A stretch of 37,966 nt of DNA from Clostridia bacterium (lineage in GTDB: Bacteria > Bacillota > Clostridia > Christensenellales > Borkfalkiaceae). A program made the translations under genes and the position numbers. The stretch lies in the NCBI GenBank assembly GCA_021202395.1, contig JAJQDC010000011.1, positions 1 through 37,966 on the forward strand. The letters are read 5' to 3'. Below the pieces are notes generated by a model that saw nothing but the letters and a program-made list of their open reading frames with translations, did no database searches and was not told where the DNA came from. Within the stretch, counting starts at the first letter, position 1, and each line of letters opens with the position of its first letter. Shown here piece after piece: positions 3,585 through 33,810 of the stretch.

Positions 3585-3655
3585 CACGGTTAAGGTATAG
3601 TAAACAAGGTGCGGTTAATGATAGAAATAACAGACAGAAAAAAAATAAAGTAAAT

Positions 3656-3697
3656 CACGGCAATTTATTTTGGATGTGTCCAAAATAAATTGCCGTG
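3656..3697 (-). terminator. Rho-independent terminator after DUF1385-PrmC
   Basis: An 18-bp perfect stem (3656-3673 with 3680-3697) around a 6-nt loop begins 4 nt after the stop codon. A T-rich tract follows on the minus strand. Confidence 0.85.
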
Positions 3698-3700
3698 AAC

Positions 3701-7105: not shown

Positions 7106-7380
7106 TGCTTTCCTATGACAGGCGGCATACTGCTTATACAGCACCGCGGTGCTGTCATTTCGACTGAAGCGTAGCGGAATGGAGAAATCTCCTGCCATTC
7201 TACGCTCTGCTTCAGTGCAACGCAAGTTGCAATGCTTTTACACCGCATTATAAAGTCAAATTCAATCAAGAATAAACGTATTATTTTTAAATAACTAATT
7301 TGCCGCCCAACCTGCTGGTCGCCAGTCCTGGCGGGATTGCCACGCGGTAGAGCCCGCTCGCAATGACGGAGAGGCTACTG
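7106..7380. repeat. Composite intergenic repeat, copy I
   Basis: Aligns by eye along its length with 30919-31165. Shared modules in order: TGACAGGCGGC, GCTGTCATTT, GCGGAATGGAGAAATCTCCT, CAAGTTGCAATGCTTTT, ACCGCATTATAA, ATTATTTTTAAA, GCCGCCCAACCTGCTGG, CGCCAGTCCTGGCGGG and GCAATGAC. Many modules are short palindromes. It fills part of the 628-bp gene-free gap at 7050-7677. Confidence 0.8.
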
Positions 7381-16043: not shown

Positions 16044-16108
16044 CAGGGCGCAGTAAGCCGTAAAGCTGACACGCCGATGAAAATAAGGCTTTCTGCAGCT
16101 ACGCCCTG
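16044..16108 (-). promoter_or_regulatory. Predicted H-type pseudoknot upstream of rpsM
   Basis: A 7-bp helix CAGGGCG/CGCCCTG (16044-16050 with 16102-16108) encloses two 5-bp helices that cross. AAGCC/GGCTT is 16055-16059 with 16087-16091, and AGCTG/CAGCT is 16064-16068 with 16096-16100. The loops are 4, 18 and 4 nt. It lies in the 204-bp gap between rpmJ and rpsM, where E. coli carries its S4-binding alpha-operon pseudoknot. Regulation is inferred from position. Confidence 0.55.
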
Positions 16109-16120
16109 CGGCGCGCGCAA

Positions 16121-16237
16121 TTAGCCCTGGCGCTGCTTATGGCTCTTGTTTTTAGAACAGATTACCATAACCTTGCCGTTTCTTTTGATAATTTTGCATT
16201 TGTCGCACATAGGCTTTACTGAAGGTCTTACTTTCAT
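16121..16237 (-). CDS. rpmJ: Large subunit ribosomal protein bL36 (zinc form)
   Basis: 38 residues, the normal size. The start is [20 protein letters not shown] and the end [12 protein letters not shown]. Ligands are Cys11, Cys14, Cys27 and the following His, so this is the zinc-ribbon form. AAGGAG (16251-16246) lies 8 nt before the ATG. It is separated from infA by 460 bp holding a truncated copy of the structured RNA element, which ends 26 nt before the start codon. Confidence 0.96.
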
Positions 16238-16263
16238 AATAATTTCTCCTTGAAAAATTTGGG

Positions 16264-16424
16264 TTCACGCAAATCTTTTTGAATTGCTGTTCAAAAACAT
16301 TTGCCGTGATTTGAAAAGACAACCATTCTTGACTTAACAGTCTGCGAATGTTTTTCTTCTCTTTTGCGCATTTGCTCAAAGCATAGATATTATATAATGC
16401 GCAAAATTCACTTCTTTACCTTAA
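16264..16424 (-). ncRNA. Structured RNA element, copy A (truncated), before rpmJ
   Basis: The 3' half of the element only. Helices in plus coordinates: 16265-16283 with 16290-16309 (C bulge and one mismatch), AAAAGA/TCTTCT 16314-16319 with 16355-16360, CATTC/GAATG 16324-16328 with 16346-16350, GACT/AGTC 16331-16334 with 16339-16342, and TTTTGCGCATT 16362-16372 with 16396-16406. It ends at the conserved TTAAGGTAAAGAAG segment. The 5' domain of copies B and C is missing; unrelated sequence with a CATCCTGAGCG repeat takes its place. Family not recognised. Confidence 0.7.
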
Positions 16425-16697
16425 TACAGCGGGGTTTTTGGCATAACAAGTGAAGCCAAAAACTCATTTTTTATTTTTAGAACAAGCCGCTTTTTGCTAC
16501 CGCAAAATAGCGATTTCTACATTACTATAATCGACCGAAACCCAACCGTCATCCTGAGCGTTAGCGAAGGATCCCGCGAGAGCGGCATCGAGCCGCGGCG
16601 CGCGAACAGCTGGTACGACGGCACGCAAGTTATTTAAAAATAATACGTTTATTCTTAAATATTTTTCACCTTATAGAAAGGTAAAACTGCGGAATAG
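16425..16697. repeat. Gene-free stretch with intergenic repeats between infA and rpmJ
   Basis: Contains a GGC...GCC hairpin with flanking A/T runs (TTTTTGGC near 16435-16442 with GCCAAAAA near 16455-16462) and CATCCTGAGCG...GGATCCC (16552-16576). A tract TTATTTAAAAATAATACG (16631-16648) recurs inverted near 7273. No gene is seen. Confidence 0.6.
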
Positions 16698-16919
16698 TTA
16701 CGATTTACTGCGCCAGGTGATTCTGCCGCGCTTTAAATCATAAGGGCTCATTTCTATCTTGACTGTATCGCCTTCTATAATGCGAATATAGTTCATTCTG
16801 AGCTTACCCGAAATATAAGCGTCTATCACATGGCCGTTTGATAACTGGACTTTAAAATTGGCATTGGGCAGGCACTCTATTACCTTGCCTTCCGCTTCAA
16901 TAAGGTCGTTCTTAGACAC
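16698..16919 (-). CDS. infA: Translation initiation factor IF-1
   Basis: 73 residues forming one S1-type OB fold: [20 protein letters not shown], then [20 protein letters not shown] and the end [15 protein letters not shown]-1 binds the 30S A site during initiation. It follows the KOW-protein gene by 18 bp. The spc-operon position after map and before rpmJ is standard for Firmicutes. Confidence 0.98.
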
Positions 16920-16937
16920 AAACCGTTCCCTCCGCTA

Positions 16938-17243
16938 TTATTCTGCGCCCTCTTGGGGCGGCGTAACGTCTGCGGCGTTGTAATTTTTAAGCGCCGAATA
17001 AACTTCGCTGTCAAACACCCTTGCGCCGGAAATCAGCTTATCGCCTATGGTATCTACCCTTTCAGGCAAAAGGTGAAGGTGCTTTATGCTCTTTTTTTTG
17101 GGGGCAGCCAGCTTTTTGCCGTCGCCGTCCGCAACAAGAACATACCCTTCAGGCAGCACTTCTTTTATTAAGTAATATTTTCCTGCGTCGCGGCCCTGCG
17201 TGCTTTTACACACTCCGCCCACAACGGGTTGAATTTTTTGCAT
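16938..17243 (-). CDS. KOW-domain RNA-binding protein (L14e-like)
   Basis: 101 residues. Residues 6-50 form a KOW motif (GGVCKSTQGRDAGKYYLIKEV), as in the L14e/L27e-like proteins found between map and infA in Firmicutes; the rest is Lys-rich then acidic (PPQEGAE). It may help ribosome function or assembly, but the role is not established. The start at 17243 has only a weak AGG, and the last hairpin of structured RNA copy C ends 9 nt before the ATG. Translation could therefore depend on that RNA. Confidence 0.88.
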   Translation of the reverse strand: MQKIQPVVGGVCKSTQGRDAGKYYLIKEVLPEGYVLVADGDGKKLAAPKKKSIKHLHLLPERVDTIGDKLISGARVFDSEVYSALKNYNAADVTPPQEGAE

Positions 17244-17252
17244 ACAAACCTA

Positions 17253-17475
17253 TTCACGAATTTCTTTTTCGTTTGCTGCCGAAAAATAAATTCCGTGATT
17301 TTTGGGAACAAACCAATCTTGCTTACGCTGCGATTGTTATTTTTCCCCTTTTTCGTATTTTTAAGGGCATACGTATTATATAATACGAAAAATTCCCTTT
17401 TTTACCTTAAGCTGCAAGTAGGTTGCAGCAAACAGGGGCGCTCAGGTGTGGCAAAGCTACGCCTTCGCAAGCTAT
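17253..17475 (-). ncRNA. Structured RNA element, copy C, before the KOW-protein gene
   Basis: Same fold as copies A and B with different bases. Helices in plus coordinates: 17254-17271 with 17280-17298 (same C bulge and mismatch), GGGAA/TTCCC 17304-17308 with 17343-17347, CAATC/GATTG 17314-17318 with 17332-17336, TTTTTCGTATT 17349-17359 with 17382-17392, and GCTGCAA/TTGCAGC 17411-17417 with 17423-17429. The TTAAGGTAAA segment and AAACAGGGGCGCTCA are shared with copy B. It fills nearly the whole map-KOW gap. Confidence 0.75.
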
Positions 17476-17518
17476 TATTTTTAAAAATGAGCCGCAATTT
17501 GCTTACGCAAATGTGCGA

Positions 17519-18268
17519 TTACAAGGTAAGAATTTCTGTTCCGTTTTTTGTAATTAACACGGTGTTTTCGTAATGGGCTGCGGGCAGACCGTCGCAAGTG
17601 CGTACCGTCCAACCGTCTTTAGCGTCCTGCCATACCTTGTATGTGCCCATGTTAATCATAGGCTCTATACAGATTGTCATTCCCGCTTTAAGGCGGATAC
17701 CCGTTCCCCTTCTGCCGTAATTCGGCACGGCGGGATCTTCGTGCATATCCCTGCCAATTCCGTGCCCCGTAAGCGCCCTTACCACGCCGTAGCCGTGTGC
17801 TTCTGCATGCGTCTGTACGGCATAGCCGATATCAAACAGGGGCGAACCTTCCTGCAGACCTTCTAACGCTTTAAAAAAGCATTCTTCGGTTACCTTTACA
17901 AGTTTACGCTTTTCTTCTGATACGTTGCCTATTAAAAACGTTCTTGCGGCGTCGCCGTTAAAACCGTTCTTTTCGGCAGTGATGTCTACGCTTACAATAT
18001 CGCCGTCCATAATGATTTTATCTTCAGACGGTATTCCGTGCACTACTACGTCGTTTACCGAAACGCAGCTTGACGCGGGGTAGCCTTCATACCCTAACTC
18101 CGACGGGACAGCCCCGCAGGAAGTTATGTATTTGTAAACAAGGTCGTCTACTTCTTTGGTAGTCATTCCCGCTTTTATGCGTTCGCCGACAAACTGCAAT
18201 GTTTCTTTAACAATGCGGCAGGGTTCACGCATCAATTCAATTTCCTGCGCCGTTTTAATGTGAATCAT
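17519..18268 (-). CDS. map: Methionine aminopeptidase, type I
   Basis: 249 residues. The five metal ligands are in place: Asp in VDITAEKNGFNGD (two Asp), His in GHGIGRDMHE, Glu in TICIEPMI and Glu in YENTVLIT. It removes the initiator Met from new proteins in the cytosol. Its start overlaps the adk stop by 4 bp (ATGA), so the two are coupled. Downstream lies structured RNA copy C. Confidence 0.98.
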   Translation of the reverse strand: MIHIKTAQEIELMREPCRIVKETLQFVGERIKAGMTTKEVDDLVYKYITSCGAVPSELGYEGYPASSCVSVNDVVVHGIPSEDKIIMDGDIVSVDITAEKNGFNGDAARTFLIGNVSEEKRKLVKVTEECFFKALEGLQEGSPLFDIGYAVQTHAEAHGYGVVRALTGHGIGRDMHEDPAVPNYGRRGTGIRLKAGMTICIEPMINMGTYKVWQDAKDGWTVRTCDGLPAAHYENTVLITKNGTEILTL

Positions 18269-24780: not shown

Positions 24781-25010
24781 TTCACGCAAATCTTTTTGAA
24801 TTGCTGTTCAAAAACATTTGCCGTGATTTAAGAAGACAACCGTTCTTGACTTAAAAGTCTGCGAACGTTTTTCTTCTCTTTTGCGCATTCTTAAGGGCGT
24901 ACCATAATTTAATGCGCAAAATTCACTTCTTTACCTTAAGCTGCAAGTAGGTTGCAGCAAACAGGGGCGCTCACGCACGGCAAAGCCGCACCTTCGCCCT
25001 GTCTATTATT
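24781..25010 (-). ncRNA. Structured RNA element, copy B (full length), before rplN
   Basis: Five helices in plus coordinates: 24782-24800 with 24807-24826, AGAAGA/TCTTCT 24831-24836 with 24872-24877, CGTTC/GAACG 24841-24845 with 24863-24867, TTTTGCGCATT 24879-24889 with 24911-24921, and GCTGCAA/TTGCAGC 24940-24946 with 24952-24958. Then comes a 5' arm with ACAGGGGCG/CGCCCTGT (24961-24969 with 24995-25002). The 3' hairpin is identical to copy A; the 5' domain is shared with copy C. No T-tract, so it is not an intrinsic terminator. RNA family not recognised. Confidence 0.75.
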
Positions 25011-30835: not shown

Positions 30836-31170
30836 GCTGTCCGCGAGCCGCTATTGCGGCGTGGCAATCGTAGCATAGTGGTAACACCACTTTTATACGA
30901 TTCTTCGCTTGCGCTCTGGATGACAGGCGGCGGCACCGCCTGTACAGCCCTGCAGGGCTGTCATTTAGACTGGAGCAAAGCGGAATGGAGAAATCTCCTA
31001 CCCTTCTGAGCACTGCTGCCGTGCAACGTAAGTTGCAATGCTTTTTACCGCATTATAATAAACATTATTATTTTTAAACATCGCTTCTGCCGCCCAACCT
31101 GCTGGTCGCCAGTCCTGGCGGGATTGCCTTAGTACTGACGCTCACATGCAATGACATATAGTTTCGGTCG
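30836..31170. repeat. Composite intergenic repeat, copy II
   Basis: Second copy of the composite at 7106-7380, with an extra left part (GCGTGGCAATCGTAGCATAG, TATACGATTCTTCGCT) that also occurs at 2264-2330 and 32420-32480. Internal hairpins GGCGGC...GCCGCC-like and ACAGCCC...GGGCTGT are clear. Non-coding. Confidence 0.8.
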
Positions 31171-32315: not shown

Positions 32316-32667
32316 AAACTAACTCCGCTCGCTAATTTTTTTCTTAATTGCCACTAAAAGCCTATACTTGGCTTCCCCTTTTATGGGGGGGGGGACAAGG
32401 TGTCGTTGTCATTGCGAGCGTAGCGTGGCAATCGTAGTAAAATACTCGTACCACTTTTATACGATTCTTCGCTTACGCTCTGAATAACAAGTTGCGCTAA
32501 AACATTGTCCCGCCCTTGGCTCCCTTATTAGGGGAGCTGGCAGCCATCAGGCTGACTGAGGGGTTCACCTTGTTATATGCCAAACCCTTCCCCCACTACG
32601 TGGTCCCCCTTCCCTGATAAGGACGGCAAGGAGTATTATTACGTTTTCCTGCCTGTTGAATAATAAT
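32316..32667. repeat. Gene-free gap filled with intergenic repeats
   Basis: Contains TTCCCCTTTTATGGGGGG (32372-32389), CATTGCGAGCGTAGCGTGGC (32410-32429), TATACGATTCTTCGCTTACG (32459-32478) and GGGAGCTGGC...GACTGAGGGG (32532-32565), the same families seen elsewhere in the window. It separates two same-strand genes; no terminator or gene recognised. Confidence 0.7.
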
Positions 32668-33810
32668 TTACACCCCGAATAATTCAGCAAGTTCTTCTTT
32701 GTCTATCTTGCTGCCTATTACGCACAGCCTGCCCGTGTAGGCAGCGCAGCCATCGCGCACTTCGGGTTCACCCGGGACGTAGTCAAAGTGCAGCCAGCCG
32801 CCGTTTTTACCCTTTACTATGCCCTTGGCACGCAATACCGTTCCGTACTGTACGGAGTTTGTAAGCGAAGACAGTGCGGCGGTAAGCTCTTCTTTGGTAA
32901 AGCTCTTAGCCGTCTCTACACCCCAGCTTTCAAATACTTCGTCGGCGTGATGGTGGTGATGGTGTTCATGCTCATGGTCGTGCTCTTCGTGGTCATGGTC
33001 GTGGTGATGGCCGCAGCCGCATTCTTCGCCATGTTCATGCTCATGGTCATGCTCGTCGTCATCATGGTGATGATGTTCGTGCTCTTCATCTTCGTCATGG
33101 TGGCAGTGCCCGTCGTGGTCGTGGTGATGGTGCTCGTGCTCTTCTTCGTCATCGTCATGATGATGGTGATGTTCGTGGCAATGTTCTTTGAGTTCCGCAA
33201 GCATATCGGTAAGGGTATCGCTGTGTTCCATTGCAGCCAATATATCTTTACCGTCAAGCTCCTGCCAGGGGGTAGTTACAAGGGTAGCCTTTGCATTGTG
33301 CTCTCGCACGAGTTCGGCAGCCTTTGCAAGCTTTTCTTCGCCAGCTACGTCGGCATGGCTGAATACAATGCAGTTGGCGGTTTCTATCTGGTCGTTAAAA
33401 AATTCACCAAAGTTCTTCATATACATTTTGCACTTTGCCGCATCCACTACCGCCGTATAGGTGTTAATAACGCTGTCGGGCAGCTCTGCGCTGTATACCG
33501 CTTTTATTACGTCAGAAAGTTTACCTACGCCTGAAGGCTCAATCAAAATTCTGTCGGGATGGTATTCTTCGTAAACTTTGTTCAGCGCCTTGGCAAAATC
33601 GCCCACCAGCGAACAGCAGATACAGCCGGAGTTAAGCTCGTTAATCTTAATTCCTGCTTCGGCAAGGAAACCGCCGTCTATACCGATATCGCCGAACTCG
33701 TTTTCTATAAGAACGAGCTTTTCGCCTGAGTAGGCTTCTTTAATAAGTTTTTTTATGAGTGTGGTTTTACCTGCACCCAGAAAACCGGAAAAAATGTCTA
33801 TCTTTGTCAT
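32668..33810 (-). CDS. CobW/ZNG1-type G3E GTPase with histidine-rich metal-binding region
   Basis: 380 residues. Walker A is GFLGAGKT (9-16), ENEFG and the metal-sensing CICC (63-66) follow, Walker B is ILIEPSGVG, and NKxD reads SHAD. Residues 210-288 are almost only His, Asp and Glu, with about 39 His and a CGCG. A CobW_C domain ends it. Proteins of this type pass zinc (some cobalt or nickel) to target enzymes in the cytosol using GTP. AGAAGG lies before the ATG. No Zur-type site was recognised upstream. Confidence 0.92.
   Translation of the reverse strand: MTKIDIFSGFLGAGKTTLIKKLIKEAYSGEKLVLIENEFGDIGIDGGFLAEAGIKINELNSGCICCSLVGDFAKALNKVYEEYHPDRILIEPSGVGKLSDVIKAVYSAELPDSVINTYTAVVDAAKCKMYMKNFGEFFNDQIETANCIVFSHADVAGEEKLAKAAELVREHNAKATLVTTPWQELDGKDILAAMEHSDTLTDMLAELKEHCHEHHHHHDDDEEEHEHHHHDHDGHCHHDEDEEHEHHHHDDDEHDHEHEHGEECGCGHHHDHDHEEHDHEHEHHHHHHADEVFESWGVETAKSFTKEELTAALSSLTNSVQYGTVLRAKGIVKGKNGGWLHFDYVPGEPEVRDGCAAYTGRLCVIGSKIDKEELAELFGV

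Follow-up and report, generated by a model that had tools for sequence, protein, structure and literature searches.

A dispersed clostridial repeat whose covarying stems and third strand suggest a folded DNA strand with a triple helix

The window analyzed here, a 37,966-nucleotide stretch from a Clostridia genome (G000), contains three copies of a structured element that the initial annotation had taken for an RNA. Our preferred and, on balance, probable explanation from comparison of the sequences is a non-autonomous intergenic repeat that is mobile or once was, with selection acting on a single DNA strand in a fold that contains a class I intrastrand triplex. Its repeat nature, the occurrence of copies in both orientations, the Watson-Crick covariation of the hairpins P2, P3 and P4, and a triplet code relating a third strand (s) to the purine arm of P3 (m) are all evident in the copies compared. 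That these strands change in step as base triplets suggests that evolution has been keeping a folded DNA strand with a triple helix.

The element in the window and its fold

Copies A, B and C had been placed in the window by the initial annotation, and alignment recovered each of them where it had been placed, on the minus strand; this is the strand of the window's genes, and the one on which the element is read here. Their parts, together with those of a solitary hairpin, are as follows.

17253..17475, minus strand: copy C element, in the gap between map and the KOW gene; 3' end at 17253, 5' end near 17475 (approximate limit)
17411..17429, minus strand: copy C hairpin HB (GCTGCAACCTACTTGCAGC)
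17395..17403, minus strand: copy C third strand s (AAAAAAGGG), mirroring the P3 purine arm at 8/9 positions
17349..17392, minus strand: copy C hairpin P2 (TTTTTCGTATT ... AATACGAAAAA)
17304..17348, minus strand: copy C hairpin P3, with purine arm m (17340-17348), inner stem and pyrimidine arm w (17304-17309)
17254..17298, minus strand: copy C terminal hairpin P4
16264..16424, minus strand: copy A core, in the infA/rpmJ gap, with s at 16409-16417, P2 at 16362-16406, m at 16353-16361 and P4 at 16265-16309
16435..16462, minus strand: copy A alternative 5' hairpin module (TTTTTGGCTTCACTTGTTATGCCAAAAA)
24781..24939, minus strand: copy B core, in the rpsQ (S17)/rplN (L14) gap, with s at 24924-24932, P2 at 24879-24921, m at 24870-24878 and P4 at 24782-24826
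24940..25002, minus strand: copy B 5' hairpins, HB at 24940-24958 and HA to about 25002
3655..3698, strand not given: solo P4-like hairpin at the 3' end of a prmC-like gene; a full element stands at the same site in G032, G069 and G084

Read 5' to 3', the element runs from an A/T-rich box through the hairpins HA and HB to the third strand s and then to P2, P3 and P4, with a core of about 120-160 nt and a whole unit of about 190-280 nt. The region 5' of the core is occupied either by HA and HB or by an alternative module, a hairpin whose loop reads TTCACTTGTTAT. The length of P3 sets two forms: in type 2 (G000, G069, G032) it is about 50 nt long with an inner stem, and in type 1 about 20 nt.

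Every compensated change quoted for the three copies was found again in the alignment. In P2, TTTTGCGCATT/AATGCGCAAAA becomes TTTTTCGTATT/AATACGAAAAA; the inner stem of P3 occurs as CATTC/GAATG, CGTTC/GAACG and CAATC/GATTG, while its outer stem changes from AGAAGA/TCTTCT to GGGAA/TTCCC; and P4 changes from CAAAT/ATTTG to AATTT/AAATT. When 22 near-full cores drawn from blastn matches in G000 were aligned, RNAalifold predicted 34 pairs, and two-sided changes were present at 21 of them. Compared with shuffled sequences, copy C folded with z scores of -3.7 (minus strand) and -3.9 (plus strand) and the minus strand of copy B with -6.7, and four type 1 cores gave strong folding as DNA (z -4.8 to -6.6). 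The earlier reader knew of no Rfam family with this shape, and comparison with Rfam agreed: no covariance model matched the element, either at the gathering score across the window or at E values up to 1 for 16200-17600.

Copy C (17253) is separated by nine bases from the ATG of the KOW gene (17243), as had been reported. The map-KOW gap is 275 nt long here, as against 10-38 nt in 12 of the 15 relatives in which both genes could be placed, the remaining three having gaps of 87, 134 and 183 nt.

The window has other features of note. Further interspersed repeat families (CTGTCATTTCGACTGGAGC..., GCGTGGCAATCGTAG...) occupy intergenic positions 2363-2415, 7129-7239, 30859-31045, 32423-32496, 7279-7341 and 31066-31128, and a minus-strand gene at 32668-33810, which we take to encode a CobW-like GTPase, includes a very long His/Asp/Glu-rich stretch that is probably metal-binding.

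A dispersed family in both orientations

Searches of this genome by blastn and covariance model placed the three copies in a repeat family scattered genome-wide, and the inclusion of relatives added many more cells to the covariation claimed for them. Copy B alone gave 33 blastn matches, some of them short, in the 1.83-Mb genome G000. Within the genus, model R1 had matches in 35 of 61 genomes; G000 contributed 35 (training copies included), G069 27 and G032 18. Model R2, for the shorter form, matched 54 of the 61 with up to 58 matches per genome, 58 being the number scored. An order-wide search with R2 gave matches in 13 of 386 genomes (three genera, all in family f1) and a class-wide search in 2 of 391, both within the genus; these counts are lower bounds, given that the wide searches applied stricter filters and missed remote forms. 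Nor do such low counts prove absence, since a member of another family (G089, family f29) surfaced through one weak R1 match (E 4e-4). In 800 kb of G089 we found, by reading, 14 copies, one interrupted and several in tandem, which are type 2-like and keep the order HA-HB-s-P2-P3-P4 with wholly different P2 and P4 sequences; the short words in common are GTGAAT, GCAGA or a close variant of it, and either GGTTGTC or GGTTTGTC. R1 gave one more weak match, in G177, which on reading bore no resemblance to a relative of the element. All genomes compared are drafts.

Copies lie at unrelated intergenic sites and in both orientations, and on this ground the cis-regulatory role proposed for the spc genes was not upheld. 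The initial annotation had held that scattered copies in both orientations, with no covariation beyond chance, would count against its reading; the scatter is what we found, and the lack of covariation was not borne out. As judged by reading, with long gaps seen only in part, the S17-L14 gap of 19 species holds a forward copy in three (G000, G069, G016), an inverted copy in two (G028, G078) and a solo P4 in G030, with none seen in 13. In the infA-rpmJ gap, judged likewise, four of 20 species have a copy (G000, G032, G016, G030) and two a solo P4-like hairpin (G069, G084); again none was seen in 13, and G024 differs in gene order. The solo P4 hairpins (window 3655-3698; G030; G069 and G084) stand at sites of relatives' full elements, in the manner of solo LTRs.

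At nine shared sites that were compared by reading, s or m differs in eight pairs and the 5' module differs too in four, and the downstream flanks align. Given that related copies occur within a genome and that the 5' module differs at four of the nine sites, such same-site changes may have come about by replacement and not by point mutation. At four loci, units of 187-192 nt stand in head-to-tail arrays, and at two of these an extra P4 precedes the array; reading of the tandem units revealed no evident gene inside, and reading of selected copies revealed no terminal inverted repeats of the element itself.

Two further groups of copies were observed. Nine in G068 (L306-L314) have partly common flanks, several of them lying near contig ends and within a larger repeat whose inverted ends resemble TATAAACGCATA ... 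TATATGCGTTTA, which suggests recent amplification with a larger carrier. In the genome of the window, the copies G000:C1:28924 and G000:C1:49106 do not differ from each other, nor do their near flanks, and both lie ahead of the same gene, presumably kduI-like; they probably arose by a recent segmental duplication.

According to heuristic gene calls, the P4-side gene points away from P4 in 62 of 103 copies and towards it in 40, with one direction undetermined (a cruder earlier count gave 64, 34 and 5). Of those running towards P4, 30 of 40 have their stop codon at most 11 nt away, and on the strand of these antisense genes a short T run, mostly of 3-5 by reading, follows P4. Both observations would suit a transcription terminator or insulator that spread as DNA, with P4 ending the genes that enter from its side and the element kept for that purpose. 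However, a consensus terminator scan of 16100-17700 gave one site, which is not at P4, and no excess over shuffles; the three window copies lie within a ribosomal gene cluster; and HA, HB, P2, P3 and the triplet covariation would be left unexplained. We consider this explanation quite improbable.

The gene positions also bear on a second proposal, a cis-regulatory structured RNA in 5' leaders that folds within the mRNA and governs how the following gene is translated. Among copies from type 2 genomes, 39 of 49 have a right-hand gene encoded on the reading strand, often beginning 8-33 nt past P4 by heuristic calls, and the downstream genes identified by reading include rpmJ, rplN, rplK, def, cysK and leuD. 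On the other hand, we recognized by reading no pathway common to these genes, in 40 of the 102 copies with a gene to the right that gene lies on the opposite strand, its 3' end towards the element, and the S17-L14 copy is inverted in two species and missing in 13 of 19. Together with the near absence of G-T pairs and the report, in the part of PMC4666352 consulted, that purine-motif triplexes do not form in RNA, these data make a regulatory leader unlikely.

Covariation of base pairs and of the third strand

The G-T counts that enter this judgment were obtained with a parser that accepts only Watson-Crick P2 pairs with at most one mismatch, and thus favors intact, G-T-poor copies: with L111 and L104 omitted, G-T pairs account for 25 of 1677 cells (1.5%) in type 1 and 14 of 1572 (0.9%) in type 2, as against 95 of 806 (11.8%) in SRP RNA from the same genus and pipeline. 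SRP RNA (matched in 49 genomes, with 26 distinct sequences among the 30 loci listed) was chosen as the G-U control because the TPP riboswitch passed the cut-off in just 6 of the 61 genomes; it is a single RNA family, with a mean identity of 89% versus 64% and 73% for the element. Among the 22 copies chosen by blastn, G-U was present in 9 of 748 cells. Non-pairs make up 4.7% of type 1 cells versus 0.9% in SRP RNA. The selection on RNA that had been claimed for the three copies is sustained in one part, selection on the fold, with 21 of 34 pairs changed two-sidedly, and not supported in the other, given that G-T pairs are scarce and that the third strand follows a purine-triplex code. According to PMC4666352, in a passage that cites its reference 43, purine-motif triplexes cannot form in RNA. 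Alternatively, the avoidance of G-T could reflect a need for both strands to fold.

The third strand s is purine-rich, lies directly 5' of P2, and mirrors the purine arm m of P3 located past P2. The register between s and m was set by the GAA adjoining P2 and was not fitted; read outward, with T over A counted, the two agree at 9/9 positions in copies A and B and at 8/9 in copy C. Agreement was scored by the code of the purine-motif triplex (G·G-C, A·A-T, T·A-T) in 104 copies, which remained of 130 raw parses after filters and removal of duplicates and of which 103 have a P4.

At positions 1-4 of the 44 distinct s/m pairs the code is followed in 152 of 176 cells, the shuffle maxima being 121 (2000 row shuffles) and 120 (column shuffles). 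T is a known third base over C-G, and adding T·C-G to the code raised the count to 158 of 176 (maxima 123 and 119). Types 1 and 2, taken separately, are each above their own shuffles. With the code fixed, held-out copies from further genomes followed it in 77 of 92 cells (23 distinct pairs; maximum of 5000 shuffles, 69), and the 15 pairs unseen before did so in 50 of 60 (shuffle maximum 46); these counts still include two spurious parses, G205 and G006 had each supplied one copy to an earlier inspection by eye, and of the four matches in G429 one parsed as an element. When shuffling was confined to single genomes, with both spurious parses omitted, 328 of 372 cells followed the code, the shuffles averaging 271 and never exceeding 295 (157 copies, 40 genomes, 3000 shuffles); since this null is itself high, much of the agreement between s and m is shared composition.

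When distinct haplotypes per genome were counted, the third-strand base opposite A was T in 83 cases, A in 48 and G in 4; opposite G it was G in 197, A in 16 and T in 5; opposite C it was T in 17/17; and opposite T it was T once and C once. In genomes with at least two purine-arm alleles the code was followed in 11/13 at position 1, 5/6 at position 2, 15/17 at position 3 and 6/10 at position 4, and agreement declines past position 4. Sliding the register lowered it from 0.86 to 0.41-0.62. A direct-repeat relation of s to m was tried and rejected, its agreement (0.60) being below that of the mirror orientation. Pairing of the P2 loop with the third strand was likewise set aside: by eye, CCCTT suits the GGG and some AAGTG classes and does not suit the GATTG class. 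The converse of T over C-G occurs in two copies of G078 (L275, L278), where a T-A pair, with its T in the P3 purine arm, faces a third-strand C.

This same code is used by the ITxF finder for class I intrastrand triplexes (PMC4666352, in the part consulted), and for GAA repeats the preferences of third-strand orientation are described as subtle (PMC7515735, likewise in part). A pyrimidine-motif triplex (U·A-U, C+·G-C) in RNA of the opposite strand would account for the cells of identity, G with G and A with A, which number 245 of 372 against a within-genome shuffle maximum of 220, but the T opposite A (83 of 135 A cells) and opposite C (17/17) would be illegal triplets, and we regard it as very improbable.

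A different explanation must be weighed for the hairpins. Two-sided changes far exceed one-sided ones (380 to 20 in type 1 and 298 to 13 in type 2, as against 28 to 17 in SRP RNA), the palindromes are near-perfect, and 5' modules differ at four of nine shared sites, all of which would be expected if covariation arose without selection, replication template switching correcting the palindrome arms and gene conversion spreading the alleles. The products of template switching, however, are reverse complements, so that it can yield neither the mirror relation between s and the P3 purine arm nor the T opposite A and C. We therefore judge this explanation improbable.

Scans for triplex-forming sequence were also carried out. 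A relaxed scan of G089 gave 19 mirror, 17 direct-orientation and 3 shuffled hits and is not discriminating alone; by reading, 14 of the 19 mirror hits carry the architecture of the element, and because the scan selects for agreement between s and m, the G089 copies cannot serve to test the code independently. Applied to 332 kb from 20 genomes of other families, the relaxed scan had 4 hits in shuffled sequence, 14 in direct orientation and 9 in mirror orientation, and on reading none of the 9 had the architecture. In the window, a strict scan picked up copies B and C but missed A; it gave 2 places in 400 kb of G089 and 0 in shuffles.

A proposed folded strand, its relatives and the search for a carrier

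In the folded DNA strand that we favor, s is predicted to bind P3 along its major groove, antiparallel and by reverse-Hoogsteen pairing, forming a class I intrastrand triplex of which P2 would be the structured first loop. The strand may become exposed during replication or in a transposition intermediate, where a putative trans-acting recombinase would read its shape and not its sequence; the stems could then drift freely while pairs and triplets are kept. The element would spread among genes in either orientation, make head-to-tail arrays, and leave solo P4 remnants.

The IS200/IS605-derived repeats and REP/BIME are non-autonomous intergenic hairpin repeats presumed to be mobilized in trans as single strands. 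Compared with these the element is far larger and more structured, and the Y1 transposase (PF01797), present in 18 of the 61 genus genomes, is absent from 43, while the element is found in 54. We rejected Y1 as its partner; Y1-free carriers (G069, G002, G030, G077) have 20 to 58 R2 matches, and Y1 is present in the carriers G000, G032 and G083. No transposase or recombinase tied to the element was found, and an accompanying protein gene was rejected in turn, the recurrent flank ORFs (26 largest groups) proving to be element-derived frames or ordinary neighbors, which we take to be nusG-, secE- and glutamate-synthase-like. With regard to phage carriage, two short patterns had no exact match in viral contigs, the window element had no match in phages, and the G089 element had none in phages or plasmids.

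BOX, ERIC and other MITE-like repeats resemble the element in having dozens of intergenic copies with conserved hairpins; we know of no triplex or comparable covariation reported for them. The element is closer in kind to the PIT, BoxC and TMECO elements of E. coli and other proteobacteria (PMC4666352; Hoyne and Maher, its references 22 and 41, as cited there), which the parts consulted describe as interspersed, intergenic, found in both orientations, devoid of any mobility gene found, sharply different in copy number among close relatives, and built on a purine-motif intrastrand triplex. Judged by its triplets, the element appears to follow the PIT/TMECO code (AAT, GGC, TAT), yet it is akin to PIT/BoxC in kind with an architecture that is new. 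In the same source TMECO is a 37-nt sequence of Y-R-RH order (class II), short-looped and almost uniform from copy to copy, whereas the element is RH-R-Y (class I), has HA, HB and P4, and has triplets that vary and covary; its first loop is the covarying hairpin P2, mostly about 40-50 nt (shorter in G089), as against the limit of 1-6 nt given there for PIT/TMECO. Neither the TMECO consensus nor the class II order nor loops of 1-6 nt were found in the element. Integron attC sites, as treated in the parts of PMC2727003 and PMC6393395 consulted, offer a further parallel, being folded single-stranded DNA read by structure, with little sequence conservation and in tandem arrays, but the element has no cassette genes that we could see, has several hairpins and a predicted triplex, and is dispersed rather than confined to a single array.

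We regard as evenly balanced the broader proposal that the unit on which selection acts in a transposable family, present in at least two families of one clostridial order, is a single-stranded DNA fold with a triple helix that coevolves triplet by triplet, the fold being read by shape by an undiscovered recombinase, and that phylogenetic covariation would here support an intrastrand DNA triplex for the first time. Literature on intrastrand and intramolecular triplexes, as covered by titles and abstract openings with subscription papers mostly outside, contained no report of this repeat family or of triplet covariation. The part of PMC4666352 consulted describes triplex formation in vitro and an association with instability, with no settled function.

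A biological role for intrastrand DNA triplexes has been in question ever since PIT was described, and coevolving triplets would be independent evidence that such structures are maintained in nature. The more than 100 natural variants of the element provide ready test pairs for biophysics and bait for a protein that reads the fold. They also carry a warning, that covariation of paired arms does not necessarily imply RNA; if the proposal is true, the family would be a DNA counterpart of structured RNA.
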